Source: an uncultured bacterium
GTDB lineage: Bacteria > Verrucomicrobiota > Kiritimatiellia > RFP12 > UBA1067
Assembly (NCBI GenBank): GCA_902779565.1
Contig: CACZCD010000016.1
Location: 1 to 49,932 of the forward strand
Length of the DNA: 49,932 nt
Reading direction: 5' to 3'
Under the pieces are notes generated by a model. That model was not told where the DNA came from. It worked only from the letters and a program-made list of their open reading frames with translations, and did no database searches. Both the position numbers and the translations under genes were made by a program. Of the stretch, positions 5,501 to 32,387 are shown in pieces (the stretch's first letter is position 1; each line of letters starts with the position of its first letter).

Positions 5501-7591
5501 GACATCCGCGAATGCCTCGCCCACCGCCGTCGGCGCAAGGCGCACCATCTTCGGCGCACAGCCGGTGCGGAAGATCTCGGGTTCGTCGCGATCCTGCCCA
5601 ATCCACACAAGTCCGCAACCCGCCTTCACTTTCTCAAGAATCAGCTTCTTCGCCGCCTTCGGGAAAATCTCCCACGGAAGCCCGCCCACGAGAATCGCGT
5701 CCGCATCCTTCTTCAGCGTCTTGATCAGATTCTCCTCCACGTCGGCGGTGGAAAGCGAACCGAAATAGTCGCCGTTGTCGTAGATGGGGTTCGAGATCGT
5801 GCGCTGCTTGGGCCGGTTGCGGTAGTAGTGGAGCGCGATGGAGGTGGTGAGCAGTTCGCAGTCAAAGCGGTCCGCAAAGAAGCCGAGCTCCACATTGTCT
5901 CCCACGCCCGTGAGGGCGATCACGCGCATCTTCTTCGCCGCGAGCGGCTTGGCGAACGGCACGCACACCTGATGGGGAAGATTCGTGTAGCACGTGAGGT
6001 CGAAGCTCTTCATGTCGCTCGTGCGGCTCGCCTCCGTTGGCGCGAGCGTCCACGCCCCCTCTTTCGGCGGCGCTTCGAGGCGGCACACCTCTTTGCCGTC
6101 CTTCTCGAGGATCACGGTCGTCGCGTCCGCCTTGAACGTGCGGACTTCGCCCGGCTTCGCGAACGTCAGCTCCACCGTCTTGCCGTCCGCCTTCGCCGTC
6201 ACCTTGCCGCGCCGCGAGTTGAACACCTTCACCGTGCCGCCGACAATCTCGCCCACCAGTCCGCCGCCTGCGCCGGACACCTTCGAAAGCCCCTTGAAAG
6301 CTATCACCTCGGTCGGCACCGAATACGACTTCCCGTTGTCGATCGACACGGGGATCATCCGCCACTCAAGCGTCGGCACAACATCGGACGCGAGCCAGCT
6401 GTAGAAGCTCTTCACCTCCTTGAACGGCATCGTCACCGCGACGCCACGCCCAAGGTCGTCCACCGCCGCCATCCAGCCGCGCGACGGGTGGTGGATCCAC
6501 CGCTCCTGCGGACGCTTGTCGCGCTCGATCTCCACGATTCCTTCGTCCGAGGGGTAGTAGTAGGAGCACAGCCGCCCGTTGATGCCGAGCGTGGTGTGGA
6601 TGAGCAGTCCGTATATCTGCGCGCTCATCGCGTCCGGCAGGTTGCCGAACTCGTAATCGACCCTGAATGCCGTGGAATCGTCGTAGAGCGTGTACTTCTT
6701 ATCGATCACGAGGAAGTCCGTGCCGCCGCCCTGCGCGTTGCCGCGCGCCTCCAGACCGCAGAAACCGTCTCCGCTGAACGGCTTCAGCGTGAACGGCTTC
6801 TTGAGGTAGAACCACTTGTTGCCGCGCCGCGACCAGTCAAACTCGCTGAACGTTCCAGCGTCGGGCTTCACGTTCGTAAGCTCCGCGTCGAGGAACTTCG
6901 ACCGGAGACTCAGCACGCGTCCGCCGAGCGGCGAAACCAGCATCTCGAACTGCCCATTCTCCACCTTCGTCAGGTTCCCCGGCAGCGCCGCCCTCGCTGC
7001 CGCAATGTCGGTTTCCTTTGCGGCAGGCGGCGCGGCTTCCTTACGCAAAGGGCTGGGGGGCTTTGCGTTCTCTGTGTTCTTTGCGGCTAAAACCGCTCCC
7101 GCCTTGCCGTCATCAAGCACGATTTCCGATAGTGCGCCCCACGCATGGGTCTTCACCACCACCTTCACCTTCACCGCCTTCGCCGCCACCGGCACGCGCA
7201 GGGTGAGGTTCGTGCACGACGCATCGATCACCGGCGGCTTGCCGCTGTACTTCGAAATCGGCACCGGCACGGACTTCGGCTTGTCGTATTCGCCGGAGCC
7301 GTCCGCATCCACCGCCACCTCCACCTCGTGCATCAGGTACCAGTTCGTCGTTTTCTTGACCGTCACCACGACCTCGGCGATCTCGGTTGCCGCCGGCAGC
7401 TCGCACACCACCACGCCCTGCGGTCCCTTCCAGTACGCAGAAGTCTTCAGGTTGCCGTCATTGATCGCGCCGCTCTTCGTTTCGGTCACCTTCTGCGGCG
7501 AGAGGATTCTGTACGTGTACGCCACCGGTGCCGCGCCGCACGCCAGCGCACACATCGCCGCCGAAAAACACAAAAAGCCTCTGATTCTCAT
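2543..7591 (-). CDS. Very large secreted GH42-like multidomain glycosidase candidate
   Basis: This is a 1682-residue exported protein. It begins with a signal peptide ending near residue 20 (CALACGAAPVAYTY); the ATG follows a strong GGAGAGGGAGGAAT site. Residues about 22-160 form a discoidin-like β-sandwich. Residues about 200-480 look like a mutarotase/glycosidase β-sandwich. Residues about 550-790 resemble a ThuA/GATase-like α/β domain, then come Ig-like sandwiches. From about 1000 (WPHDDFTFGLW) there is a TIM barrel like GH42/GH-A β-galactosidases, with FGDEQSL (E1122) as likely acid/base. A trimerisation-like domain follows (KALILADACAMGDGEIAAV). Substrate is unknown; a β-galactosidase-type activity is inference. 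Residues about 169-177 and 1606-1617 are encoded by 9-base and 7-base tandem repeats. The gene has its own promoter at 7624. Confidence 0.72.
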   Translation of the reverse strand: MRIRGFLCFSAAMCALACGAAPVAYTYRILSPQKVTETKSGAINDGNLKTSAYWKGPQGVVVCELPAATEIAEVVVTVKKTTNWYLMHEVEVAVDADGSGEYDKPKSVPVPISKYSGKPPVIDASCTNLTLRVPVAAKAVKVKVVVKTHAWGALSEIVLDDGKAGAVLAAKNTENAKPPSPLRKEAAPPAAKETDIAAARAALPGNLTKVENGQFEMLVSPLGGRVLSLRSKFLDAELTNVKPDAGTFSEFDWSRRGNKWFYLKKPFTLKPFSGDGFCGLEARGNAQGGGTDFLVIDKKYTLYDDSTAFRVDYEFGNLPDAMSAQIYGLLIHTTLGINGRLCSYYYPSDEGIVEIERDKRPQERWIHHPSRGWMAAVDDLGRGVAVTMPFKEVKSFYSWLASDVVPTLEWRMIPVSIDNGKSYSVPTEVIAFKGLSKVSGAGGGLVGEIVGGTVKVFNSRRGKVTAKADGKTVELTFAKPGEVRTFKADATTVILEKDGKEVCRLEAPPKEGAWTLAPTEASRTSDMKSFDLTCYTNLPHQVCVPFAKPLAAKKMRVIALTGVGDNVELGFFADRFDCELLTTSIALHYYRNRPKQRTISNPIYDNGDYFGSLSTADVEENLIKTLKKDADAILVGGLPWEIFPKAAKKLILEKVKAGCGLVWIGQDRDEPEIFRTGCAPKMVRLAPTAVGEAFADVPFGLLGAEPSYAFKADGATVHAKAGDSPWLTENALGKGRVIHLPYAAIFGALNNTTGITPNLRDYYPDHAAPVEYYYSLIAKCLLRATNVEMPAAFRKVGIQVSHAKVGSTMVSKVRAHFGIVVRADANGVLKWTVRDRFGRVLAQGNESISLKVGATVRDLSLDGLAPYSGPLAFEAVLRDGDGRVMTWGAWAFENRPAASLASFAADRDAAKGGAYRDGDTVKLKASVSGDVAGKSVRFEFRDSFGRLLDEKVLPAAAEVAADFMISNELPARMYETTARLMDGGKEIDRLRAEIRARPDPTKWPHDDFTFGLWTGERLREYLWPEFAKLFREMNLSANIANQWRMAIDFAMRHGFEPTILSGAGLGRSTEPAEYSKTGDKMTLVRKTCLSDPAFFARQKKDLSAVAQRIANLGIRYVWFGDEQSLTGYGGTPIDFCFSPHCLAEFRKFLKERYGTLAALNAAWETDFKDWEAVVPFTRQEVWAPGGERHVAGWADHLEFMDGRLANSLDYARKIFQAEDPNVGTSISGTQPPTAYGGMDWWKQVNVLGGALSYGVGGQVDIHRSFNPKGDFMPWNWGYSSQGNRAAIGVWLTLFNGCRGIMGFHDLSIFNPDWTWSSGYRDAKPGMDRVAAGVGKHFLNNLLNKPPIAILYSQASIRAAFFENRMKDHNALREKYIALLRHLGYDFDFVSYEQLADGTFEKRAYKALILADACAMGDGEIAAVKRFAAKGGAVLAEGVPARREANCRPRKVSPLAGCVTMLAETPEIGYLKALEYPGDEKNAAAIAAEQDRLEKALATVVGAPRLLIRDAVDGSRVRLVSVWPRIGRHGEPVWCVVSNEKKGSRLVDFVFPKKGHLYDLVSGQKIGQGDRFRLPLSKGRAYAFELLDTEPKMAVSANGADVRIRYGERGTGNGEPGTVDTVVRVKVFDPSGTEAWYYSRKVVVKDGQATMTIPFAKSDAKGAWRIEATDVLTGESRVAEITR
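2742..2776 (-). repeat. Heptamer tandem repeat (TTCCCCR) inside the GH42-like gene
   Basis: Five consecutive 7-base units read on the plus strand GTTCCCG, GTTCCCC, ATTCCCC, GTTCCCC, GTTCCCC. Because 7 is not a multiple of 3, the reading frame cycles and the array encodes a Gly/Glu/Arg/Thr/Asn-rich linker (around RYGERGTGNGEPGT). It lies between two C-terminal β-sandwich segments, where a flexible linker would be tolerated. Confidence 0.8.
7043..7087 (-). repeat. 9-base tandem repeat with perfect 8-bp inverted repeat, in coding sequence
   Basis: Three 9-base units (CTTTGCGTT, CTCTGTGTT, CTTTGCGGC) occupy 7061-7087. The first unit also pairs with ACGCAAAG at 7043-7050 to make a perfect 8-bp inverted repeat around a 10-base G-rich spacer. 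The segment is in frame in the GH42-like gene and encodes a Lys/Asn/Ala/Pro linker (AAKNTENAK) right after the discoidin-like domain. Confidence 0.75.
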
Positions 7592-7749: not shown

Positions 7750-10365
7750 CTATTTGGCCGTCAGAAGATCAAGGGTGCGACCGACCGCGAGACGCCAGGC
7801 ATCAACCTTCTTCTGGTCACGCGCCTTCACGATTTCACCGCGTTCAGCCAGAAGCGACCGCGCCCAGGCCAGCAATTCCGCTGAAGGGCGGCTCGCCGCG
7901 TCCAGCGCCTCAACGCGTGCGAGCGCCTTCTCCAGCGCATCCATGTACGCAACATCCTCCAGTCCTTCCCGCACCGCCTCCAGCCGCTTGGTCGGGACCG
8001 GCTTCTTGTCGTTGCCGCGCCAGCACAGCCCTTCATCGATACCATCGCGGGAATCCCATCCGTCATCCCCTTCCGGCGTGAAGATCGTGTAGTAGGCCAT
8101 TCCGTCCAGCTCCATCAAACGGCATTCCCATGGATAGAACCTGAAATATTCCAGAACGTCCCGCCGCTGCATATACCGACGGCACTGGTAGCTCCAGACC
8201 TTCGCCCCCTTGGATTTCAGGACGCGCCGCGTCTCCGGCCCGCGAACCGGATCTTTCAGGAGTCCGTGTATGACCGTCCACATCTTGTAGAACTCGGGCA
8301 GTTTCGCCTCCTCGATCTGCTCCAGCGTGGCCCCCGTCGGCGGCGGCGTGGAGAGCAGCACCGCCTGAAACCACAGGTTTGTGTTCCAGGCCCAAACCGC
8401 CTCACGCTCCTTCGCGCGTTTCGGTATGTCCCGCGCCACGAACTCGTCGCTGATGAGTCCCTTGAACACAAACTCGTCGTCACGGAAGCCCAATCCATGC
8501 AAGCGGTCCACCATGATCTTGTACCATTCCAACTGCGGAGGAGTGACCCACCCCATGACAAACTTCATGTCCAGCTCCTTCGCCACCCGGAAGAACTCCC
8601 CGCCCGCGTTCAAGGCGAGCTCGCGGTTGAACCCCTTTTCCCACAGCGCCTTGGACGGCCAGACGACGTTCCGGTCGTTCTTGAGTCCGTAGCAGTACCG
8701 CCGCGCCTGCGTCCAGCCGTACATGACATGATATTCGTGCATGAGCTTCAGCAGCGCCACCTCATCGCAGCGGAAAAGCTCCGGCCCCCAGAAGAATGAC
8801 GGGAGCGGCCAATCCTTCGTCTCCGGCAGCGAGAAGTTCCACACCTTCACCGTCACGGGGATCTCGCGGTCGGCAATGGAGGCGTCATACGCAGGCTTCA
8901 GGACGATCTTTGTTTCGTACTCCCCCGGCGGCACGCCGCGCGAATTGAACGTGATCCACACGCGCTTCGCGACGCCCGGCGAGAGCGTGACGACGTTCCC
9001 CGGCGACCGGACATGCGGTGCCGTCATCACGTCCCCCTCGAACCGGATGAACGGCTCCATCGCCACCTCGAAGTTGTCGCCGGAGATGAACGTCTTGCCC
9101 TTCGAAACCGGTATCGGAACGATGCGGATGTCAAGTCCGGCCCCGGCAAGCGCGCCCGCAAGCTCGAGGCACACCGCCTCGCGCTCGTTTCCCGCCTGCT
9201 CGAAAACAAGCCGTTCCGGCATGCGCCCGGCCGCATGCGGCGGACGGTCTTTCGGCGAACCCTTCTCCCACAGATCCGCAGGCCAGACGAAATACGACCA
9301 GTCGGATACGAAGTGGCCAAATCCCTCCACCGCGCCAAGGAAACGTTTCGCGGCATCCGGCGAGACGTCCCTTCCGCCCCGCACCGCTTCGCCGCTTCCG
9401 CGCTCGAACGCATCAAGCTCTTCCTGCATCTGCGCAATCCCCAACCGCGCCTGGCGGAAAAGCGGATGCTCCTCGCCCGCGAACGCCGCCGCGCCACCGG
9501 AGAGTTCTCCAAGCCGCCGCTTCGCCCCGTCTAAACTGTCTTTCAGCGTCTTGCGGAACTCCCTTTGGCGGCAGGTGGCCATCTCCTCCGAAAGTGCTGC
9601 GGCGTTCGCCCCGGTCGGTGCGGCGAACCGAAGCTTCCCGAAAGCCTCCGTTTTCGCAAACGACGCAAGAACACCTTTTTCGTATCCCGCCATGCGCGGG
9701 ACCGAACCGACTGCCTTCGTCGGCGCATGGACAGTGCGGCACAGACGGAACCCGATGAAATCTCCGGCGATCGGGCGCGCCATCGGAACGCCGGCGTAAG
9801 GGAGCTTGTACTCGAACGTCCACCGGTCGCCGTGCCGGACGGCTTTCGCATTGCGCTTCCGCGTCCAGTATTCGCGGTTCCCGTTCTTCAGGTCGGCAAT
9901 CGATCCAAGGGGATTGATGACAAAGTGATAGGGCGTGGCCGCGCCCTCGACCGGCAGGCAGAGCGAAAACTCAAGGTTGTCGTCATCCCATATCGGCTGA
10001 TCCCGCTGGTCGTACCGGGCGCGCGCGGAGTCCATCGGCTGGAACATCTCGCCGCCGATATAAAGCGCCGTCTTGGAGTACAGCGCCTTCACGGTGCCGC
10101 GATACGGATAGGGCGCACCGTCCGCGCAGAGGACGACCTGTGGCATTGGCTCGGCGGCGTCCCACTCTTTGCGGGAGAAGGAACCTTCCGGCTCAAAATC
10201 CTGCTCGACAAACGCGGCGGTGAACTCCTCTTTCGCGTCTGCAAGCGTGACGGCGGCCGTCCCCGCCGCCGGCATCACCTCGAAAACCTTCGCCGCCGAT
10301 GCGCCCGCCTCGAATGCTGCGAAGATGAATGTAAAATGCAATATGTAAAATGTAAAATGTTTCAT
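7750..10365 (-). CDS. GH123-type exported protein with N-terminal CBM9-like domain
   Basis: This is an 871-residue exported protein. I start it at ATG 10365, behind GAGGAAAG; an in-frame TTG at 10383 is less likely. Signal peptide KHFTFYILHFTFIFAAFEA. Residues about 60-250 match a CBM9/DOMON-like sandwich (ALYIGGEMFQPMD, WDDDNLEFSLCLP, FVINPLGSIADL). A helical linker and β-sandwich follow. Residues about 510-815 match the GH123 catalytic domain (formerly DUF4091), with the paired acidic residues expected for substrate-assisted catalysis in KGLISDEF (D640, E641) and the C-terminal signature REGLEDVAYMDALEKAL. GH123 enzymes known so far are β-N-acetylgalactosaminidases; that activity here is inferred from family. 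It is the last gene of the operon from 21793 and a paralogue of the protein at 14349-16931. Confidence 0.8.
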   Translation of the reverse strand: MKHFTFYILHFTFIFAAFEAGASAAKVFEVMPAAGTAAVTLADAKEEFTAAFVEQDFEPEGSFSRKEWDAAEPMPQVVLCADGAPYPYRGTVKALYSKTALYIGGEMFQPMDSARARYDQRDQPIWDDDNLEFSLCLPVEGAATPYHFVINPLGSIADLKNGNREYWTRKRNAKAVRHGDRWTFEYKLPYAGVPMARPIAGDFIGFRLCRTVHAPTKAVGSVPRMAGYEKGVLASFAKTEAFGKLRFAAPTGANAAALSEEMATCRQREFRKTLKDSLDGAKRRLGELSGGAAAFAGEEHPLFRQARLGIAQMQEELDAFERGSGEAVRGGRDVSPDAAKRFLGAVEGFGHFVSDWSYFVWPADLWEKGSPKDRPPHAAGRMPERLVFEQAGNEREAVCLELAGALAGAGLDIRIVPIPVSKGKTFISGDNFEVAMEPFIRFEGDVMTAPHVRSPGNVVTLSPGVAKRVWITFNSRGVPPGEYETKIVLKPAYDASIADREIPVTVKVWNFSLPETKDWPLPSFFWGPELFRCDEVALLKLMHEYHVMYGWTQARRYCYGLKNDRNVVWPSKALWEKGFNRELALNAGGEFFRVAKELDMKFVMGWVTPPQLEWYKIMVDRLHGLGFRDDEFVFKGLISDEFVARDIPKRAKEREAVWAWNTNLWFQAVLLSTPPPTGATLEQIEEAKLPEFYKMWTVIHGLLKDPVRGPETRRVLKSKGAKVWSYQCRRYMQRRDVLEYFRFYPWECRLMELDGMAYYTIFTPEGDDGWDSRDGIDEGLCWRGNDKKPVPTKRLEAVREGLEDVAYMDALEKALARVEALDAASRPSAELLAWARSLLAERGEIVKARDQKKVDAWRLAVGRTLDLLTAK
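10329..10363 (-). repeat. Heptamer tandem repeat (ATGTAAA) forming signal-peptide codons
   Basis: Five 7-base units on the plus strand (ATGTAAA, ATGCAAT, ATGTAAA, ATGTAAA, ATGTTTC) end at the start codon of the GH123-type gene. They encode the hydrophobic core of its signal peptide, giving the unusual Phe/Thr/His-rich KHFTFYILHFTF. Confidence 0.85.
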
Positions 10366-10398: not shown

Positions 10399-12356
10399 CG
10401 CCCAAGCAACTCGGCGAACTTCGGCATCACGGCGTCGCGCCACAGTTCATAGCCGGCATGGTGCGGATGCAGAAGATCATCAATCATCAAGCCCGGCTTG
10501 AACTCCCCGTCCGCCCCCAGAAATCGATCCGTGAAATCATACCAGATGACGCGTTCGCCATCTGCGTAGCCTTTGATGATTTCGTTCACGCGAGCGATGC
10601 GTACGCGCTTTGCATCACCCGCATGTCCTCTCGGAAAGATCGGGAGCAGCAGAATCTTCGCTTCCGGCTGGCGGCGCTTCACGGCTTCTATGATCTTTTT
10701 CACTCCGAGTGCGGTATCTTCGGGGCTGTCGCCATTGTTGTTCGTACCGATCATGACCTGAACAATCTTCGCCTTGTAGCCGTCGAGCTCGCCGTTCTCG
10801 CAACGCCACAGGACGTTCTCGGTATGGTCGCCGCCGTAGCCCAGATTGAGCAGCGCATACTTCTCACGCATTCCATCGAACACGTCGCGTCCGCAGCTCC
10901 AGTACGTGAAATCCTCCCAGAAATGCGTGATCGAATCTCCAAGCATCACGACGTCATACTCCCCCTTGCCGCCCGCGATCTCGTTCTGCTTCTCCTCAAG
11001 GCGGTTGAGCCACCACCATTTTCCCCGGCTGCCGGAGATGTCAATCCGGGCCTTGGGCATGCATGTGCGCGGCAACGCGGATTGGGAACATTCCACGTCC
11101 TCCCCGCACCAGACGACGCGCTTGCCGTCTGCCAGTCGCCGTATCTCGCGGTTCACGACATCGCTGCGCGGATAGCGAGCGAACGGATGCAGCAGCAACA
11201 CGGCGTCTGGCACGGCATCGCGTAACGCATCCACAACCGCACGCACGCCGCAGATCGCCGCGATAGGGTTCCTTCCGTCATCCGCATCCAATTCAATCTC
11301 CACGGTCTTGGCCTGCGATCCCTGAAGTTCACCGTCCGCAATTCGCCACAACGCCTCCTCGGATGCCCCTCGCACGAAACCGGCCGTGTCGGACCAATGC
11401 CGGACAATCGGACGCGTCCCTTGCGCGGGCTTGCGCGGCGAAAGCGATGCGGTCTTCGGCGGATCCTTCCACGCGCGTTTTTCATGCACGAGGAAGTCGA
11501 ACACGAGCGGATAATGGTCCGAAAGATCCTCTACATGCCCGCCTGTCGCGACCCGGAACTCGTACGGCTGCACGCGCGCCGGATCATAGAATACATGATC
11601 CAGCCGCATCGTCCGGGCGGCCTTGTCGAGGGGCGTGCCGTGGTACGCACCGTCAGGGCCACGCACCGGGAAGCCGTGCCAGCTCGGGCGCGTATCCTTG
11701 CCGGGCGCTGCCTCCTGCCCGCTCCGCCATCCAAGCCGGTTCAACTCCGTGATGGCGGAGGTCGCGCGCCCGGCGTTCAAATCGCCGCCGCCCACTATCG
11801 CCGCAGAGTTCCTTTCCGCCGCCGCCGACAATTCGAAATGAAGCCGTCTTGCGTTCTCCATGCGTATGTAGTCGTCGCCCTCGCCGTCGGTGCGCCACCA
11901 GAAGTGCGTGGAAAACGCCAAGATCCTTTCGCCCGTATTCACATCCTTGACGGCCACCCAAACCGCACCCTTTGACTTGTCGAGCTCGGGATGGAACAGG
12001 ATCGAACCCTTCTCCAAAAGCGTGAATTTGTCCTTCCGGAACAAGATCGGCGTAAAGGAATCGCCGCCTTTGTCTCCCATCTTCCGTCCGACCGCCTCGA
12101 ATTTGTTCGTGAGGTCACCCATGAGACGCGAGGCCCAGAAGTTGGCGGTCATCTCCTGCAGGGCGATGAAGTCCGGGTTGAGGTTTTTCAGTATCGACGC
12201 CTCGCGCGCATCACGCTCCTGCGGCGGATTGCCAAAATAGTCGCCCCAGATGTTGAACGTCACATACCGGTACGGCGCGGCACACGCCGCAGAGGCGAAA
12301 ACAAAGCACCCGATGCAAAATGCAAGATGCTTGTAGAACGCAACTGTCTCTTTCAT
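10395..12356 (-). CDS. Secreted endonuclease/exonuclease/phosphatase-family domain fused to SGNH esterase
   Basis: This is a 653-residue exported protein (signal peptide ending CFVFASAACAA). Residues about 25-300 carry the EEP fold motifs in order: TFNIWG, ALQE, STHFWW, GGGDLNAG, RLDHVF and LSDHYP. Residues about 466-653 are a complete SGNH hydrolase of the PAF-acetylhydrolase-like type: GDS block I (MLGDSITHFW, Ser about 475), NLGYGGDHTENVLWR, IGTNNN, and DDLLHPHHAGY. Residues about 315-425 align with the middle of that same SGNH domain (ALWRIADGEL against VLWRCENGELDG; GVRAVVDALRD against GVKKIIEAVKR) but have lost the catalytic motifs, so they look like a decayed duplicate. The likely role is esterase/phosphodiesterase trimming of glycan decorations outside the cytoplasm (inference). 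It lies mid-operon, 71 bases after the preceding gene. Confidence 0.8.
   Translation of the reverse strand: MKETVAFYKHLAFCIGCFVFASAACAAPYRYVTFNIWGDYFGNPPQERDAREASILKNLNPDFIALQEMTANFWASRLMGDLTNKFEAVGRKMGDKGGDSFTPILFRKDKFTLLEKGSILFHPELDKSKGAVWVAVKDVNTGERILAFSTHFWWRTDGEGDDYIRMENARRLHFELSAAAERNSAAIVGGGDLNAGRATSAITELNRLGWRSGQEAAPGKDTRPSWHGFPVRGPDGAYHGTPLDKAARTMRLDHVFYDPARVQPYEFRVATGGHVEDLSDHYPLVFDFLVHEKRAWKDPPKTASLSPRKPAQGTRPIVRHWSDTAGFVRGASEEALWRIADGELQGSQAKTVEIELDADDGRNPIAAICGVRAVVDALRDAVPDAVLLLHPFARYPRSDVVNREIRRLADGKRVVWCGEDVECSQSALPRTCMPKARIDISGSRGKWWWLNRLEEKQNEIAGGKGEYDVVMLGDSITHFWEDFTYWSCGRDVFDGMREKYALLNLGYGGDHTENVLWRCENGELDGYKAKIVQVMIGTNNNGDSPEDTALGVKKIIEAVKRRQPEAKILLLPIFPRGHAGDAKRVRIARVNEIIKGYADGERVIWYDFTDRFLGADGEFKPGLMIDDLLHPHHAGYELWRDAVMPKFAELLGR
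12313..12333 (-). repeat. Short heptamer repeat (ATGCAAR) in signal-peptide codons
   Basis: Three 7-base units (ATGCAAA, ATGCAAG, ATGCTTG on the plus strand) encode the start of the hydrophobic stretch of the EEP/SGNH signal peptide (YKHLAFCIG). The unit is close to the ATGTAAA repeat in the signal peptide of the next gene at 10329. Confidence 0.6.
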
Positions 12357-16952: not shown

Positions 16953-16980
16953 CACTAACAACTAACGACTGACCACTAAC
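16953..16980 (-). repeat. Heptamer array (CACTAAC) straddling a stop codon
   Basis: Four 7-base units on the plus strand (CACTAAC, AACTAAC, GACTGAC, CACTAAC) cover the last codons and TAG stop of the 637-residue gene and the spacer before the GH123-type gene. The C-terminal residues LVVSR are encoded by the array. The unit matches the arrays at 24157-24191 and, on the opposite strand, 32334-32361. Confidence 0.85.
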
Positions 16981-18875
16981 TTATACACATGCACCCCGAA
17001 CGGCTCGAAATCATCCTCGAACACACCCTGCGAAAGCGCCACCGTGCGCCCTTCCCACGACACGCCAACCTTCGCCGCCTTCACAGGGCCGAGATTGAAG
17101 CGCGCCCGCACCTTCTCGTTCGCCGCATTCACCGCCATCAGACAGATCACATCCTTCCGTCTTTTCAGCAGCATCGTCACCGCCGGCTTGCCGAGCGGAT
17201 CCGTCTTGGGCCCTTCGACGATTTCCGGTACCGGGGGCTGCGGTGGCGTCCGCTCCAGCAGCAGCGGCGAAAGAGCCGCAATCCGCCGCGTGATGTTGGT
17301 CATCGCGGCCCAGTCCTCCGGCGTGCGGAACATCCCCGAATAGCGTGTGCCCTTCTCCCCGATCTCTCCGCCGTACTTGAACCAGGTGATGCCGTTGCCG
17401 CCGTGGATGATGGCGGCAAAGCTCATCGCATACATCTCCTGCGCCGTCGGGTAGCGTTTCCATCCCTTGCCGTGGAAGCATTGGAGGATCGGCCACACGC
17501 CGATGTTGCGCGAGCCGTCGCCGTATTTGCGTATGTCGGCCCAGCACCGATCCATGTCACGGCAGACCTCCGCCACGCACCGCTCGTCCTTGAAGCCGTC
17601 AATCGGATAGATCTCCGGCATGAACACATCGGCATAGTTCACGTACTCCTGGTAGTTGGACTTTGCCGCCTTCGCGCGCACGCCATCCGCATGGCACGTG
17701 ATGCGGGTGCCGTCGATCATCCGCGCCGCCTCGTCGCGGTCCAAGAGCTGTCCGGGCGTTGTGTTCATTGAGGTGTCGTCGCCGATGTACCAGGCGAGCA
17801 CGGTCCTATCGACCCGTCCTGTCGCCATGAACCACAAATCCTTTTCGCGCCCCGCCCCTTTGCCGTCAGTCCATTGCATCGCACCATGCTTCGCCGCCGC
17901 CGCGAACAGTTCCGGGGAGAAGCGATCCCCGTAGGAGTGCATCAAGTTCAACCCGGCCTTCTTCAGGTCGCGCACGGCCACGTCGAAACTGTTGCTGTTG
18001 AAATCGTATGGGCTTACGGCATACATGCCGATGGGGAAGAACGGCTTGCCGCCCACGAGAGCCATGCCATCGTCTCGGAGCGTCACCGCCAGCCTGCGCG
18101 GACGCTCTCCAACGAGGAACGCCTTGCGCGCGACCGCCGCGTTGCCGAGGATGTCGCTCGCCGCGATGTCGGCGTCCGTCACCGCCACCGAGGACCAGTC
18201 CACCGCCGTGTAGTCCGTGATCTCGTACGTCGCCTTCACGTTCGCGTCCTCCGACGGACTCGTGAACCGGCTCCGCACAATCGGCGCACGAAGATCGGGA
18301 ATACGTTCATCCGGCACGGCATCCCCTTCTGCCAGCAGCGTGAGACGCAAGTTCCGCACGCACACCTTCTCGCCGGGCGGCAGGTTGGGTCCGTCCACCC
18401 CGAACTGCACCTCCACCTTCGCCGCCCCTTTCGGCACCGCGCCCGCGAAACGGAATCGCGCAAACGCCCCCTTCCGGAACTCCAGGCTCAGCCGCCGCCG
18501 CCCGATACGCTTGCCGTCCGCATCAAGCCAGTTGACGGCGTTGTCCCAGGTCTCGCCGGAGGTTTCCGGATTTATCCAGTCCTTGTCGGCGCGGATCTCG
18601 AACTCAAGCGCATACGCCGTTGCCTCTTTCGCCACCGGCACCGGACGCGAATAGACGCCCCACGCCGTCTCACAGACGGACGTCTTCGTGCAGACCACCA
18701 CGAAGTCCGCGCCCGCCGCCGCCGCTCCCGTCAACGCGCGCGTCCGCCCCTCGTAGTGCGATTGCCGTCCTCCCTCGAACGACGGCCTCAGCGAAACCGG
18801 TGACCCCTCCGAAACATGGACAGCAAACGCCAGGACGGCAAATGCTGCCATCACCACATCTTTGCTTCTCCGCAT
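16962..18875 (-). CDS. Exported TIM-barrel glycosidase-like protein with altered acid/base motif
   Basis: This is a 637-residue protein with the signal segment VVMAAFAVLAFAVHVSEGS. ATG 18875 follows AGGGAAGCAGAG. Residues about 30-230 are a β-sandwich (carbohydrate-binding-like, PPGEKVCVRNLRLTLL). From about 265 a GH-A-type barrel begins with VGGKPFFPIGMYAV, which parallels VDGKPFFPLGMIHW in the 1385-residue protein at 43613-47770. Where that paralogue has WFVSDEL, this one reads WYIGDDTS, so the predicted catalytic Glu is Asp (residue 367). Later barrel strands (GNGITWFKYGGE) are intact. The substrate is unknown. Second gene of the operon, 29 bases after the β-strand-repeat gene. Confidence 0.65.
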   Translation of the reverse strand: MRRSKDVVMAAFAVLAFAVHVSEGSPVSLRPSFEGGRQSHYEGRTRALTGAAAAGADFVVVCTKTSVCETAWGVYSRPVPVAKEATAYALEFEIRADKDWINPETSGETWDNAVNWLDADGKRIGRRRLSLEFRKGAFARFRFAGAVPKGAAKVEVQFGVDGPNLPPGEKVCVRNLRLTLLAEGDAVPDERIPDLRAPIVRSRFTSPSEDANVKATYEITDYTAVDWSSVAVTDADIAASDILGNAAVARKAFLVGERPRRLAVTLRDDGMALVGGKPFFPIGMYAVSPYDFNSNSFDVAVRDLKKAGLNLMHSYGDRFSPELFAAAAKHGAMQWTDGKGAGREKDLWFMATGRVDRTVLAWYIGDDTSMNTTPGQLLDRDEAARMIDGTRITCHADGVRAKAAKSNYQEYVNYADVFMPEIYPIDGFKDERCVAEVCRDMDRCWADIRKYGDGSRNIGVWPILQCFHGKGWKRYPTAQEMYAMSFAAIIHGGNGITWFKYGGEIGEKGTRYSGMFRTPEDWAAMTNITRRIAALSPLLLERTPPQPPVPEIVEGPKTDPLGKPAVTMLLKRRKDVICLMAVNAANEKVRARFNLGPVKAAKVGVSWEGRTVALSQGVFEDDFEPFGVHVYKLVVSR

Positions 18876-21976: not shown

Positions 21977-24133
21977 ATGAAACACATTGAAGGCCACTCC
22001 CTCCTCTTGTCCGCAATTGCAGCAATGCTATTCTGCGTCACTTCGGCAGCACCCGTAAAGGCGCTGCACAGCGCCGCCGAGATCGATGCTGTACCAGGCG
22101 TCGCGGAATCAGCCGCATTACCATTTGACATTCGAGCCACAGTTGCCGCGCCGGAATCCGCGAACCTCACCAATTGCAACACCTTCATCGTATTCGACGA
22201 CTCCGGCGGTGCCCTGCTTCAGAACCATGTGACAAACCGGAACACCTCAATACACGCAGGCGACCGAGTCCATGCGACCGGTCGCATTGACGTGGACGCC
22301 GGCTCCACGTTTGCCGACTGCTATACGCTGGAGGTGGAGTCGCACGGCCCCAAGCCCCAGCCGATAAAAGCAACCGTGCGCGAACTGCTTTCTGGCCGCC
22401 ACAATTACCAACTCACAACCGTGACCGGCGTGGTTCGCGACATCTTCCTTGATGAGGTGGACAAAAACTACATCTATCTCATCCTGGATTGCGACGGCGA
22501 AACGTTGTACGCGCCCCTGAAAAGCGTTCCGCTTGCCAACTTTGGCGGCAATTCGGCGATAGGGGCCGAAGTCGCCATCACCGGGCGATGCTACGCGCAG
22601 AACGCGGGATCTCGAAGAAGGATCGGAAAGATCTTCAAGGGCGAGGGCAAGGACTGCCTGAAGGTCATCCGTCCTCCCTCCACCGGGCTCTTCGATGCAC
22701 CGCAACTCGAAGACTGCCATCTGATGAGTCCCGCCGAGATCATGGCGCTCGGACGCCGCCGCATTGCCGGCACGGTAACAGCGGTCTGGAACGGAAGCAT
22801 TCTGCTGCAGACGGCCACGGACATCTTTTCCCGTGTCGATTTTGCGGAGGCCGCACTTCCAAAATACGGTGAACACATAGAAGTTGTGGGATTCCCGGAA
22901 AGCGACCTGTACCATATCAACTTCACACGCGCACACTGGAGGCCATCTTCAGCGAGCACCTTTATCCAAGCAACACCTACAGACATCTCCATCAAGGAAC
23001 TGATGAAGAAGGACAATGACCGGCTGATCATTGCGGCGAACTTCCACGGACGGCCCATACGCATCCGTGGCGTGGTGCGGAATCTCCCGGAAGCGGCGAA
23101 CCCGAACAAGACCCTCTACGTGGAAAGCGACCAGTACATCATTCCGGTGGACTTCAACTCATGCCCAACCGTGTGCAATGACATGACGGTCGGATGCGAG
23201 ATAGAGGTTGCGGGCACATGCGTCATGGATTCGGAGAACTGGCGGCAGAACCAGGTGTTCCCGCAGCTCAAGGGCGTCTTTCTCGTTGTCCGAACGTCAA
23301 ACGACGTGCAGATGCTTTCCCGCCCATCGTGGTGGACGCCGGCGCGGCTACTGGTGGTGATCATTGCCATGCTCGCCCTGATTCTTGCGGTGGTCATCTG
23401 GAACCGGTCGCTCCACACACTTGCCGAACGGCGTGGGCGCGAACTGACGGCGGAAATCGTCTCGCGCGTGGAATCGGAGCTGAAGGTGAGCGAACGGACA
23501 CGTCTCGCCGTTGAACTTCACGACACGATCGCGCAGTACCTCACGGGAGCAATTATGGAGATCCGAACGGGGGTCCGTCTCGGCGGCGACAGGCAGCCGA
23601 CGGCGAACGAACACCTTGCCCTTGCGCAGAAGACGCTCGAATCCTGCCGTCAGGAACTCCGCAATTGCCTTTGGGATTTACGGAATCGTGCGCTGGAACA
23701 GTCTAATATGGGTGTAGCGATCCGCCAGACACTCGCGCCGCATGTCAAGAATGTCGATCTTGCCGTACGGTTCAACGTGCCACGCGAAAGGATTTCAGAC
23801 AACACGGCGCACGCGATTCTTCGCATCATCCGCGAACTCGTCATCAACGCCACGCGGCACGGGCGTGCCACCGCAATCAAAATCGCGGGAAGCGTTGAAG
23901 GCGGCAAGCTTCTCTTTTCCGTCAAGGACAACGGATGCGGATTCACGCCAGAAGAGGCACCCAGCATAGAGGACGGGCATTTCGGAATACAGGGAATCCG
24001 CGAGCGGATCACCGCCTTCAACGGAGACTTCATCCTCGAAAGCGCGCCCGGGAAAGGAACCAAAGCCACCGTCATCCTCACCATGCCAACTACCAGCGAC
24101 TCCAAACCAGAAACTCCAAGCCCCAAACTCTAA
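21977..24133 (+). CDS. Sensor histidine kinase (HisKA_3 type) with OB-fold-like periplasmic repeats
   Basis: This is a 718-residue membrane kinase with a signal peptide/first TM (SLLLSAIAAMLFCVTSAAP). Residues about 27-445 are periplasmic and appear to hold about four OB-fold-like β-barrel repeats (TVTGVVRDIFLDE, AEVAITGRCYA, RRIAGTVTAVWNGSILLQTA, IRIRGVVRNLPEA), not a common PAS, Y_Y_Y or Cache sensor. A TM helix at about 455-475 (LLVVIIAMLALILAVVIW) leads to the HisKA_3 dimerisation box with phosphoacceptor His about 515 (VELHDTIAQYLTG), then an HATPase domain with N-box (RELVINATRHG) and G-boxes (VKDNGCGF, GIQGIRERI, GKGTKATV). The C-terminal tail (SDSKPETPSPKL) is encoded by a heptamer array. 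It pairs with the response regulator at 24193 and is divergent from the glycan operon, which it probably controls. Confidence 0.9.
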   Translation: MKHIEGHSLLLSAIAAMLFCVTSAAPVKALHSAAEIDAVPGVAESAALPFDIRATVAAPESANLTNCNTFIVFDDSGGALLQNHVTNRNTSIHAGDRVHATGRIDVDAGSTFADCYTLEVESHGPKPQPIKATVRELLSGRHNYQLTTVTGVVRDIFLDEVDKNYIYLILDCDGETLYAPLKSVPLANFGGNSAIGAEVAITGRCYAQNAGSRRRIGKIFKGEGKDCLKVIRPPSTGLFDAPQLEDCHLMSPAEIMALGRRRIAGTVTAVWNGSILLQTATDIFSRVDFAEAALPKYGEHIEVVGFPESDLYHINFTRAHWRPSSASTFIQATPTDISIKELMKKDNDRLIIAANFHGRPIRIRGVVRNLPEAANPNKTLYVESDQYIIPVDFNSCPTVCNDMTVGCEIEVAGTCVMDSENWRQNQVFPQLKGVFLVVRTSNDVQMLSRPSWWTPARLLVVIIAMLALILAVVIWNRSLHTLAERRGRELTAEIVSRVESELKVSERTRLAVELHDTIAQYLTGAIMEIRTGVRLGGDRQPTANEHLALAQKTLESCRQELRNCLWDLRNRALEQSNMGVAIRQTLAPHVKNVDLAVRFNVPRERISDNTAHAILRIIRELVINATRHGRATAIKIAGSVEGGKLLFSVKDNGCGFTPEEAPSIEDGHFGIQGIRERITAFNGDFILESAPGKGTKATVILTMPTTSDSKPETPSPKL

Positions 24134-24191
24134 ACTCTAAACTGGAAACTCTAAACTAGCCACTAACCACTAGCCACTAACCACTAACTTC
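24094..24191 (+). repeat. Fourteen-unit heptamer array between kinase and regulator genes
   Basis: Fourteen 7-base units run without a phase break: CAGCGAC, TCCAAAC, CAGAAAC, TCCAAGC, CCCAAAC, TCTAAAC twice, TGGAAAC, TCTAAAC, TAGCCAC, TAACCAC, TAGCCAC, TAACCAC, TAACTTC. The array encodes the last kinase codons, contains its TAA stop at 24131-24133, and ends one base before the ATG of the response regulator. No Shine-Dalgarno sequence lies between array and ATG. At least two sub-families (TCTAAAC and TARCCAC) are fused in the same register. Confidence 0.92.
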
Positions 24192-24192
24192 C

Positions 24193-24816
24193 ATGAAAGC
24201 GAAAATCAAGATACTGATCGCCGATGACCACGCCATTGTGAGAATAGGTCTCTCCGCCCTTCTCAAAACGGAACCTGACCTGTCTGTCGTGGGCGTTGCG
24301 AAAGACGGCGAAGAGGCCGTAGCCGAGGCGCTACGTCTCAAGCCGGACGTGATTGTCATGGATCTTATGATGCCGAAGAAAAATGGGGTCGAAGCCACCG
24401 CGGCGATACATGAAAAATTGCCAGATACGAAAATCGTCATCCTCACGACCTTTGCCGCCTCAGATGGCATAAAGCATGCGCTTGACGCAGGAGCGACGGG
24501 TGCCGTGATGAAGACCGCCGAAGACGCGGAGCTTGTTTCGATCATTCGCGCGGTCGCATCTGGCGGCAAGGTGATCTCCGACGAAATACAGCAGCTTCTC
24601 ACCGAAGATCCACCTGCCGAAGAGCTTACGCCGCGTCAGCTGGAGATACTCGAATCGGTAACGCGCGGATTCACCAACGCCGACATCGCCAAACAGCTCG
24701 GCCTCCGGGAGCAAAGCGTCAAGGAACACATCTCCGCAATCCTCTTGAAGATCGGCGCCGCCAACCGAAGCGAAGCCGTCGCCATCACCATGCGCAAGCA
24801 CCTGCTGAAAATATAG
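24193..24816 (+). CDS. NarL/LuxR-family response regulator
   Basis: This is a 207-residue two-component regulator. The receiver domain (1-120) has the acidic pocket DD at 11-12, phosphoacceptor Asp57 (VIVMDLMMP), the Thr/Ser region (ILTTFAASDG) and conserved Lys (VMKTAED). The output domain (about 140-207) is a LuxR-type helix-turn-helix (LTPRQLEILESVTRGFTNAD, then LREQSVKEHISAILLKIGAA). It is the cognate partner of the kinase 59 bases upstream. The ATG directly abuts a heptamer array and has no Shine-Dalgarno sequence, so translation may depend on the upstream gene. Probable targets are the divergent glycan operon and its own promoter (inference). Confidence 0.93.
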   Translation: MKAKIKILIADDHAIVRIGLSALLKTEPDLSVVGVAKDGEEAVAEALRLKPDVIVMDLMMPKKNGVEATAAIHEKLPDTKIVILTTFAASDGIKHALDAGATGAVMKTAEDAELVSIIRAVASGGKVISDEIQQLLTEDPPAEELTPRQLEILESVTRGFTNADIAKQLGLREQSVKEHISAILLKIGAANRSEAVAITMRKHLLKI

Positions 24817-29847: not shown

Positions 29848-31227
29848 TTAGCGCACGTCGGCGCGCCAGATGAGAGAGAGGACCGCTCCGCCGACAAGCG
29901 CGGCGGCAAGGATCGTGGCGTAGGCGGCGTTCCAACCCCAGTGCTGTGCGACAAATCCGAAACCGATGCCCGAAAGGATTGTCGAGGCGTAGGAGAAGAT
30001 GCCCACGAAGCCGCCCGCGACCCCCGCCGCACGCGGCGTAGCCTGCTGCGTGGTCGCCACGCCCAGAAGCGCCTGCGGCCCGTAGATGAAGAACCCGATC
30101 ATCATGAACGGCAGAAGCTTCACCACCAGCGGCGCAGACACCGGCACGAACCAAAACGCCGCAATCGCCAGCGCCGCCCCCGCCATGCAGAGGACGCTCG
30201 TACGATGTGCGCAGCTGTTGAAAAAGCGATCCGTCGCCCAGCCCGCGACGACCATGCCGAGATTGCCGCCAACGATCTCAAAGACGAAACAGAGCGTCGT
30301 CGCGGCCGCGAGGGACAGACCCTTCGTCTCCATCAGAAGCACAATGCCCCAGTCGAGCGCGGCGAACCGCACCGTATAGACAAAGAAGTCGGCAATGGCG
30401 ATGATCCACACCTTCGGATTGCGGAACACCCAGCGCGAAACGTAGGATTTGTAGTCGTCACCATTTGACTGACAATCGCCTGATATCTTCAGGTGCGAAG
30501 TCTCAACCCCAGAATGCCCCTCTGCGTCTCTGCGGCTCTGCGTGAGATTGATTCCTTCATTCTCCGTGTGAGATATTGCGACCTCCTCCGGCGAATCCTT
30601 GAACAGGAACAGCACCGCCACGCCGCCCGCCGCCGCAATCGCCGCCGGCACGATGAAGCAGAGCCGCCATGAATGGAACAGCGGAATCAGCAGCCAGCCA
30701 CAGAGCGCGAACACCGCCCCCGCCCCGATGGAATGCGACAGGTTCCAGATAGACTGCTTCGTCGAAAGCTCCTCCGGCGGGAACCACTTCGGGAGCGTCT
30801 TGATGCACGGGCCTACGCCCATCCCTTGGAAATACTGGTTCACGATCCAGATGATGCCCATCGTCCAGACAAGCGCCGTGGCGGCTGCCGCGCCTTCCTT
30901 GACGGCCGGAGCCGCGCCGCCCAGAACAAGGAAATCGCTCAGCCCGAACAGCACATTCACGAACGAGCAGATGAAGAGACCGATCGCCATCACCTTGCGC
31001 GCGGAGTTGCGGTCCGCCACGATGCCGTTCAGGAAGCGCCCCACACCATACACAATGCCGCCACAGGTGAGGAACGCACCAAGCTGTACCTTGGAGACGC
31101 CGATATCGCCGAGAAGCGGCATGGCGATGGAAAGATTCTTGCGGATCACGTAATAGAGGGCGTAGCCCCCCATCGTCACCAGCAGCGTCTCCCACTGCCA
31201 CCATTTCAATGATCTTGATGCCGTCAT
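29848..31227 (-). CDS. OPA-family (GlpT/UhpT-like) MFS transporter
   Basis: This is a 459-residue, 12-TM major facilitator. I place the start at ATG 31227, which overlaps the gpsA stop as ATGA; an upstream GTG at 31251 is less likely. OPA-family features: YYVIRKNLSIAMPLLG in TM1, GRFLNGIVADRNSARKVMAI after TM2, and GVGPCIKTLPKWFPPEELST with NLSHSIGAG around TM4-5. The family exchanges organophosphates such as glycerol-3-phosphate or hexose-phosphates for inorganic phosphate. The neighbouring glycerol-3-phosphate dehydrogenase favours glycerol-3-phosphate (inference). The central cytoplasmic loop carries an insertion (INLTQSRRDAEGHSG) encoded by an octamer repeat. Confidence 0.88.
   Translation of the reverse strand: MTASRSLKWWQWETLLVTMGGYALYYVIRKNLSIAMPLLGDIGVSKVQLGAFLTCGGIVYGVGRFLNGIVADRNSARKVMAIGLFICSFVNVLFGLSDFLVLGGAAPAVKEGAAAATALVWTMGIIWIVNQYFQGMGVGPCIKTLPKWFPPEELSTKQSIWNLSHSIGAGAVFALCGWLLIPLFHSWRLCFIVPAAIAAAGGVAVLFLFKDSPEEVAISHTENEGINLTQSRRDAEGHSGVETSHLKISGDCQSNGDDYKSYVSRWVFRNPKVWIIAIADFFVYTVRFAALDWGIVLLMETKGLSLAAATTLCFVFEIVGGNLGMVVAGWATDRFFNSCAHRTSVLCMAGAALAIAAFWFVPVSAPLVVKLLPFMMIGFFIYGPQALLGVATTQQATPRAAGVAGGFVGIFSYASTILSGIGFGFVAQHWGWNAAYATILAAALVGGAVLSLIWRADVR
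30520..30543 (-). repeat. Octamer repeat (CTCTGCGT) in the transporter loop
   Basis: Three 8-base units (CTCTGCGT, CTCTGCGG, CTCTGCGT on the plus strand) encode the TQSRRDAE portion of the central cytoplasmic loop of the OPA transporter. The segment is polar and lies between TM6 and TM7, where an insertion should be tolerated. Confidence 0.8.
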
Positions 31228-32333
31228 GTCTCGAACGTAAACTTCTCCCACGGGATGTTTACGGGCTTCTTCTCGGTGAGGATCTCATCGATGTGCATGA
31301 GAAGCGGGAAGTCGGCGGCGTTGAGCCGCCCCGCCGCGCACAGCGCCTTCACGGCGCGCGCCACGCGTACCGCGACAACAAGCGACTCCAGCGTCACGCC
31401 CTTCAGTTCTGCCTTCGCCTCGTCGATGTTCAGGCCGCGTCCGAGCAGGATGCCGACGAGACGCGTCCGTCCACCATAGACCGTCACGTACAAATCACCC
31501 GCGCCCACGCAGAGGTTTTCAAGCGTTCCCGCGCCCTGAAGGTCGAGAAGCTTCTTCATCTCCTTCACCGCCTGACCAAAAACGGCAGCCTGCGAATTGA
31601 AGTGGAGTTCCGAGTCGAGACCGAACGCCTTCTGGTTCAAGCCGATGGTGAGCGCGATGCCAAGCGCGTAGCCGTTCTTGAGCGCGACCGCGCTCTCGAT
31701 GCCAACGACATCCGTGGAGAGTGAAATGTGGTAGTAGTCAGTGGCCATCGCATTCTTCATCATGCGCAGGGCCTCCATGTCCTTGCCGCAGAACGCGACT
31801 TCGGTCTGGTCGTGGGCAACCAGCTCGTAGGACGTGCAAGGGCCACCAATCGCGCAGATCGTGCGCTTCAGTCCCTTCTCGGCAAGCTTCGCCTCCCAGA
31901 GTTCAGGATAGCAGAGGAGTTTTTCGCCGTCGAACGGACGCGGCGCGTCCTTGGCGAGCGGCGACGCCCCGTCAACGTCAAAGAGCCCCTTCGTCACCGA
32001 GAGAACCGGTAGACTTTCAGGCAGCTTCGGCAAAACTTCCTCGCCGAACCAATCGACGCCGAAGCTCGACACGCCGCCGATGACGAAATCCACCCCTTCG
32101 ATCGCCTTCTCCATCTCCTCAATCTGGTAGAACTCGCACCCTTCCGGGAACGGCGGGATGCCCTTCGGGAAATGCTTCGCGAACTTCGGATGCCGGTTCG
32201 TCTTCCGGCACTCGTCGATGATCTCGCGGTCGAGGGGCGTGCCCACGAGCCGCACTGTGTTTCCGTTTTCACGGGCCGGGAACGCCAGCGCGCTTCCCAT
32301 CATGCCCGATCCGATGATTGCTATTGTCGCCAT
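31224..32333 (-). CDS. gpsA: NAD(P)-dependent glycerol-3-phosphate dehydrogenase
   Basis: This 369-residue cytoplasmic enzyme interconverts dihydroxyacetone phosphate and glycerol-3-phosphate for phospholipid synthesis. The N-terminal Rossmann motif is IGSGMMGSA. Other family motifs are VLSVTKGLFD, GGPCTSYELVAH, the substrate-binding region VVGIESAVALKNGYALGIA (catalytic Lys), and CVGAGDLYVTVYGGRTRLVG. The ATG is directly preceded by a heptamer array and lacks a Shine-Dalgarno sequence. A 37-codon leader ORF with a good ribosome-binding site lies upstream in the same transcript. The stop overlaps the transporter ATG, so the two are translationally coupled. Confidence 0.92.
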   Translation of the reverse strand: MATIAIIGSGMMGSALAFPARENGNTVRLVGTPLDREIIDECRKTNRHPKFAKHFPKGIPPFPEGCEFYQIEEMEKAIEGVDFVIGGVSSFGVDWFGEEVLPKLPESLPVLSVTKGLFDVDGASPLAKDAPRPFDGEKLLCYPELWEAKLAEKGLKRTICAIGGPCTSYELVAHDQTEVAFCGKDMEALRMMKNAMATDYYHISLSTDVVGIESAVALKNGYALGIALTIGLNQKAFGLDSELHFNSQAAVFGQAVKEMKKLLDLQGAGTLENLCVGAGDLYVTVYGGRTRLVGILLGRGLNIDEAKAELKGVTLESLVVAVRVARAVKALCAAGRLNAADFPLLMHIDEILTEKKPVNIPWEKFTFET

Positions 32334-32361
32334 TTTAGTGGTTAGTTGTTAGTGGTTAGTT
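32334..32361 (-). repeat. Heptamer array (GTTAGTK) abutting the gpsA start codon
   Basis: Four 7-base units on the plus strand (TTTAGTG, GTTAGTT, GTTAGTG, GTTAGTT) plus a partial unit begin at the base next to the gpsA ATG. Read on the minus strand the unit is AACTAAC/CACTAAC, the same family as at 16953 and 24157. It occupies the place where a ribosome-binding site would be expected. Confidence 0.85.
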
Positions 32362-32387
32362 TTAGTGATCTCCAGGTTTCGGTCGAA

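Follow-up and report, generated by a model that had tools for sequence, protein, structure and literature searches.

A heptanucleotide array at a histidine kinase-response regulator junction and its dispersed relatives in an uncultured bacterium

In this genome, the junction between a sensor histidine kinase gene and its response regulator gene carries a tandem array of 14 heptanucleotides, and the junction is not marked out from the genome's other arrays. We consider, with a probability of about 0.7, that the array belongs to a genome-wide, dispersed set of heptanucleotide arrays of several families, and that the effect of its unit number is incidental and shared with many genes. Most likely, it is a lineage-specific representative of the already known class of dispersed heptanucleotide repeats. 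The original prediction saw in it a possible slow tuning switch of a two-component system. A switch specific to this pair of genes is not supported, as similar arrays flank more than 100 places as well as unrelated housekeeping genes.

The array between kinase and regulator

The array occupies positions 24094-24191 of the plus strand of the window (the whole stretch of 49,932 nucleotides that was analyzed). It consists of 98 bases, or 14 units of 7 bases in one register, and the A/C-rich strand is the sense strand. From 24094, units 1 to 5 read CAGCGAC, TCCAAAC, CAGAAAC, TCCAAGC, and CCCAAAC; units 6 to 9 read TCTAAAC, TCTAAAC, TGGAAAC, and TCTAAAC; and units 10 to 14 read TAGCCAC, TAACCAC, TAGCCAC, TAACCAC, and TAACTTC. 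The final C is present in all 14 units, and 11 of them end in AAC or CAC. The last unit stops one base 5' of the regulator's ATG at 24193. The units and their lag-7 identity (62/91) agree with the earlier description of 14 in-register heptamers that run from the end of the kinase through its stop codon to one base before the ATG. When the whole 50-kb window was shuffled 20 times (Markov-2), the best 98-nt windows had a lag-7 identity of 39 to 45, and in the unshuffled window no other lag between 3 and 12 gave more than 48. TRF reported two repeats within the array, at 24125-24157 (period 7) and 24155-24188 (period 7/14).

The unit listing also bears out the claim that two unit families share one register. 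The upstream sub-array (24101-24156, plus strand) is of the AAACTCT type, with units TCCAAAC, TCTAAAC, and TGGAAAC, and its degenerate 5' part codes for the tail of the kinase. The downstream sub-array (24157-24188, plus strand), with units TAGCCAC and TAACCAC, belongs to the CCACTAR family and is nearest the regulator's start. Units 1 to 5 are degenerate and coding, and unit 14 is weak; the near-perfect part, at 24129-24188, is almost wholly 3' of the kinase stop codon (24131-24133). No more than two C or G are adjacent on either strand of the regular part (units TAACCAC and TCTAAAC), and the array lacks the runs of at least three G per unit that characterize G-quadruplex heptamers. In being a tandem repeat of 7 nt, it does resemble the dispersed heptanucleotide repeats (STRR, TAACTGA, or GGGNATC-like).

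The kinase (21977-24133, plus strand; 718 amino acids) has HisKA_3 and HATPase_c domains, and its last ~13 residues are encoded by the array; a peptide-pattern search returned no named relatives of it. The regulator (24193-24816, plus strand) is of the NarL/LuxR type, with Response_reg and GerE domains, and its start has no Shine-Dalgarno motif, as had been proposed. The predicted fold of its leader is weak (-8.7 kcal/mol, versus a median of -20.0).

We also considered, in silico, how the two genes would respond to a change in unit number. Loss of any single unit leaves the kinase at 718 amino acids, and duplication of any of units 6 to 14 leaves it unchanged; duplicating one of the degenerate units 1 to 5 adds 11 residues. 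Thus, the expectation that unit changes would alter the C terminus of the kinase holds for gains among units 1 to 5 but not for most other changes, and the kinase frame is nearly insensitive to unit number, unlike a phase-variation locus, in which such a change switches the frame or start of a gene. The expected change in spacing is the part of the prediction that survives: the distance from the kinase stop to the regulator start would shift by 7 per unit. Because the regulator's start has no Shine-Dalgarno motif and the distance would change by 7, a putative effect of unit number on the regulator's translation is possible.

An assembly artifact is unlikely: the array is internal to a contig of 49.9 kb, and others like it are found on many contigs and in independent genomes. 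A search for plasmid carriage of the array found no match, although low-complexity filtering may mask matches.

Dispersed arrays and their placement

A 1.01-Mb sample of the same genome contains 81 period-7 arrays (score of 45 or more), versus none in Markov-3 shuffles. This sample also contains 27 arrays of period 8, and other basic periods are hardly present. A second scan, which took in the 1.01-Mb sample and ten array-rich stretches, gave 116 arrays of period 7 and 35 of period 8; among the remaining basic periods between 4 and 13, none had more than 8. By extrapolation from the sample, the 4.09-Mb genome probably contains several hundred arrays. With period 7 and so many dispersed copies, the proposed likeness to STRR-type heptanucleotide repeats is upheld. 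The unit families include CCACTAR, AAACTCT, CAACTAC, AAATGTA, and CCCCRTT. Genome-wide, ACTAACCACTARCC has 111 matches, and its reversed control has 1. Composite arrays recur, in which AAACT units are followed by CCACT units in one register: this transition was seen 8 times and the reverse order twice.

Within the window, TRF identified further period-7 arrays of similar style at 2740, 10328, 16954, and 32335. A second start-abutting array of the CCACTA type (32333-32367, minus strand) lies directly 5' of the ATG of a minus-strand gene (31224-32333). A CCACTA/CAACTA-type array (16954-16980, plus strand) abuts a stop codon, overlapping the stop end of the minus-strand gene at 16962-18851. A stop-free array of the GGGGAAC type (2742-2787, minus strand) lies inside a minus-strand ORF (2543-7555). 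Finally, a TACATTT-type array (10328-10360, minus strand) codes for the signal-peptide-like N terminus, MKHFTFYILHFTFIFAAFEAGASA, of the minus-strand gene at 7750-10365; here, repeat DNA was apparently recruited as a leader peptide.

Across the genome, the genes with arrays beside or inside them include alaS, prfB, thiC, hisF, and a tRNA-synthetase gene. (We named alaS, prfB, thiC, hisF, and the presumed V-type ATPase gene atpB by recognizing their sequences.) Array placement tracks coding constraint. CCACTA arrays have stops in all frames, and none of 40 such stop-containing arrays is inside an ORF, whereas 20 of 21 stop-free CCCCRTT arrays are. The CCCCRTT arrays encode, for example, GERGTGN repeats in Glu/Gln-tRNA synthetase, saccharopine dehydrogenase, and MFS transporters. 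The proportion of gaps between co-directional genes is close to the background (61/65 for array-bearing gaps versus 585/649).

Start-abutting arrays end 0 to 9 nt 5' of the start codon. None of 14 array-led starts has a Shine-Dalgarno motif, as compared to 60% of all genes and 34% of shuffled leaders. Stop-abutting arrays are in the opposite orientation, and they often supply the stop codon or begin at it. Some gaps (L093:1658-1885 and L091:3847-4005) contain two inverted arrays, one running from the upstream stop and the other up to the downstream start. The transcript of such a gap could therefore form a long hairpin.

Relatives, other phyla, and polarity

The comparison with relatives that the original prediction had called for did not find the array at this junction in any of them. 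Of 12 related kinase-regulator junctions, 11 are array-free, with gaps of -10 to +29 bp; the 76-bp gap in the twelfth (G006) is a different heptamer array. Unit number does differ between related genomes at other loci, but no orthologous array was found at this junction.

One site elsewhere in the genome has an empty counterpart. In a genome of the same genus, the homolog of L093:1658-1885 reads AAATAG-GAGGAACGGCA-ATGACAATC, with an 11-nt gap that includes a Shine-Dalgarno sequence. Here, the same TAG and ATG are ~222 nt apart, with heptamers between them, and the Shine-Dalgarno sequence is gone. Both flanking reading frames are intact. The arrays at alaS, prfB, thiC, hisF, and atpB were not found in any relative compared, and the ATG of hisF is preceded by arrays independently in three genomes, with differing families. 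Within coding regions, the loop-forming array of the tRNA synthetase is present in G011 with three units (21 nt) fewer and the frame kept, and it is absent from six other relatives. Arrays inside conserved enzymes at L041:12525-12577 and at L076:10541-10584 and 11031-11067 correspond to loops of 8 to 13 residues (GERGTGN type) that relatives lack. Two related loci, one of which is labeled Brevundimonas, have ~6 and ~9 units. Given these empty sites and differences in unit number, the arrays are lineage specific and change by whole units without harm to reading frames. Among the named loci, the highest identity to this genome was for an ORF on a contig labeled Ruminococcus RUG12166 (L153), which is 73% identical over 743 amino acids; that contig may be misbinned.

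Within the order, 162 genomes were searched for CCACTARCCACTARCCACTAR, which was found in 29, and controls gave 0. The sequence matches 84 times here, 74 times in one other genus, and 0 or 1 times in same-genus genomes. A Y1/REP-type transposase was considered as the driver and rejected, as it is present in array-rich and array-poor genomes alike. More broadly, at least 119 stretches of GTDB genomes, from at least 10 phyla as judged from record titles, contain the 27-base sequence CCACTARCCACTARCCACTARCCACTA, which amounts to almost four exact CCACTAR units. Some of these records come from metagenome bins, in which contigs may be wrongly assigned. The expectation, computed by hand, is far below one. 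The other arrays at these loci have period 7 in 95 cases, period 9 in 20, and period 8 in 8.

The CCACTA arrays have a polarity as well. In this genome, the 3' end of the A/C strand is at the gene edge in 30 of 37 arrays. Across phyla, it is the end nearer the gene edge in 52 of 67 arrays (P = 6.5e-6; first 80 of at least 119 CCACTARCCACTARCCACTARCCACTA loci). Between convergent genes, it is at the gene edge in 16 of 20 arrays, and there the polarity cannot stem from the demands of translation initiation. Nor can a G-quadruplex property explain a polarity shared with other heptamers, as three consecutive G do not occur in CCACTAR arrays. In their location at gene edges and in their polarity, the arrays do behave as dispersed heptanucleotide repeats. 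For heptamer arrays inside ORFs of this genome (sample L039-L098; n = 32), the A-rich strand is the sense strand in 30 and not in 2, and the opposite strand is often stop-free too. We rejected the idea that A-strand polarity holds universally, for all families of heptamers: in other phyla, the split inside ORFs is 5 to 7, and the intergenic count is 32/52, which is not significant. We therefore claim the rule for CCACTA arrays only.

Explanations and known heptamer systems

In the explanation that we prefer, that of a dispersed set, arrays would seed and then grow at any site that tolerates extra sequence, gaining and losing whole units in slippage-like events, with neutral or mild effects on translation. 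At this junction, an array would have filled the space between kinase and regulator, two genes that are closely spaced or overlap in relatives. It may have supplied a new tail and stop for the kinase and, for the regulator, a leader that is rich in A and C, is unstructured, and lacks a Shine-Dalgarno sequence. The regulator would presumably be translated independently of a Shine-Dalgarno sequence or by reinitiation after the kinase stop. An effect of unit number on regulator output would then be a side effect shared by many genes and not an evolved switch of this pair. Counting against this explanation, the polarity of CCACTA arrays and the near-exclusive period of 7 are not predicted by slippage plus tolerance, and at hisF, where arrays precede the same ATG in three genomes, there could be selection for function.

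Unlikely, but deserving some weight, is that start-abutting arrays are a translational control element, bound in its unstructured repeat by S1, by a cold-shock or Csr-type protein, or by the ribosome, so that many array-led genes would make up a post-transcriptional regulon. MacGregor (2015; PMC4679880) proposed the same role for TAACTGA repeats, and the replacement of the Shine-Dalgarno region at 14/14 array-led starts, array ends 0 to 9 nt before starts, and the differing families at hisF are consistent with it. But many arrays are found within ORFs or, oppositely oriented, after stop codons, same-genus genomes manage without CCACTA arrays, and the units differ between genomes, so a common binding site is not evident. 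We consider it improbable that unit-number change acts as a slow tuning switch of this two-component system. The start without a Shine-Dalgarno motif and the variation in unit number between species at other loci would suit such a switch, but the same arrays flank unrelated housekeeping genes, the kinase frame is nearly insensitive, and related junctions lack the array. Also, the array is imperfect, and imperfect repeats disfavor rapid slippage.

About as improbable, or slightly more so, is a dedicated, strand-directional process (an enzyme or template that adds or copies 7 nt, for example) that makes arrays in many phyla. If true, it would explain why the period is fixed, why families share a register, why the arrays are polarized toward gene edges, and why one unit recurs. 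Period 7 dominates in independent genomes, CCACTA polarity extends across phyla and to convergent genes, identical units occur in at least 10 phyla, and families share register and order. However, no candidate enzyme was found, the Y1 transposase does not correlate with arrays, and the polarity of the other families is not significant in other phyla. It seems very improbable that the repeats serve as DNA sites to which the response regulator or some other transcription factor binds. Direct repeats can be operators, and heptameric ones are reported for SARP-type regulators; but this array lies within an operon-like junction and overlaps the end of the kinase, and such repeats are also found beside unrelated genes and in many phyla. 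We set aside an operator of the regulator or SARP type, given the location of the array within a transcription unit and its recurrence at unrelated genes.

Heptanucleotide repeats known as STRR are scattered in the genomes of heterocystous cyanobacteria. The arrays described here are similarly scattered, but they have other units and are from another lineage. Rehm et al. (2015; PMC4692102) cite a Calothrix case of STRR. That study describes the GGGNATC and GGGGAYT heptamers of Xanthomonas and Nostoc, for which phase variation was considered unlikely: they are dispersed, vary in unit number, lie mainly between aligned ORFs, and are not linked to phase-variation genes. They also have the same polarity as our arrays, with the C-rich strand as the sense strand before starts and the G-rich strand after stops (PMC4692102); but they form G-quadruplexes, whereas the CCACTAR arrays here contain no GGG.

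The TAACTGA repeats of marine Beggiatoaceae, some Cyanobacteria, and Bacteroidetes end 1 nt before starts that lack ribosome binding sites (MacGregor 2015, PMC4679880). Like the arrays here, they are dispersed, mostly forward, end a few nucleotides before such starts, sometimes overlap the end of the upstream ORF, and are patchy across phyla, with mixed heptamers in Microcystis (PMC4679880). In contrast, the units here are CCACTAR or AAACTCT, the arrays are longer and more degenerate, there are several families in this one genome, and many arrays abut stops or are inside ORFs. The GGGACCG elements of Geobacter metallireducens are also multi-copy heptamers between and inside genes, but they have another sequence, are described as fixed at four units, and were proposed to be regulatory RNA elements (PMC2700814). 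A 7-nt repeat is reported next to or in HMW1A of Haemophilus influenzae (PMC8262952) and neuO of Escherichia coli K1 (PMC13001214), and its unit number can change expression. As described, these are single loci in surface or phage genes, whereas the arrays here are genome-wide, imperfect, and beside housekeeping genes.

By the standards of this genome, the locus is unremarkable. The pattern to which it belongs relates to the question of why 7-nt arrays prevail among unrelated bacteria and why they have a fixed polarity at gene edges; G-quadruplex formation, which was invoked for the G-rich class, is inapplicable to CCACTAR arrays. The question of period and polarity can be tested on relatives that are rich or poor in arrays and have empty sites, and such relatives imply that a bacterium can swap the Shine-Dalgarno leaders of ordinary genes for repeat DNA.

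Other repeats are dispersed in this genome as well: the sample L039-L098 includes octamer arrays (of the GTGGAAAG and CCTCCAAA types) and hairpin-like repeats (CTCCCCCTCTAAGATAGAGGGGGTGGC and others), and some of these directly adjoin heptamer arrays.
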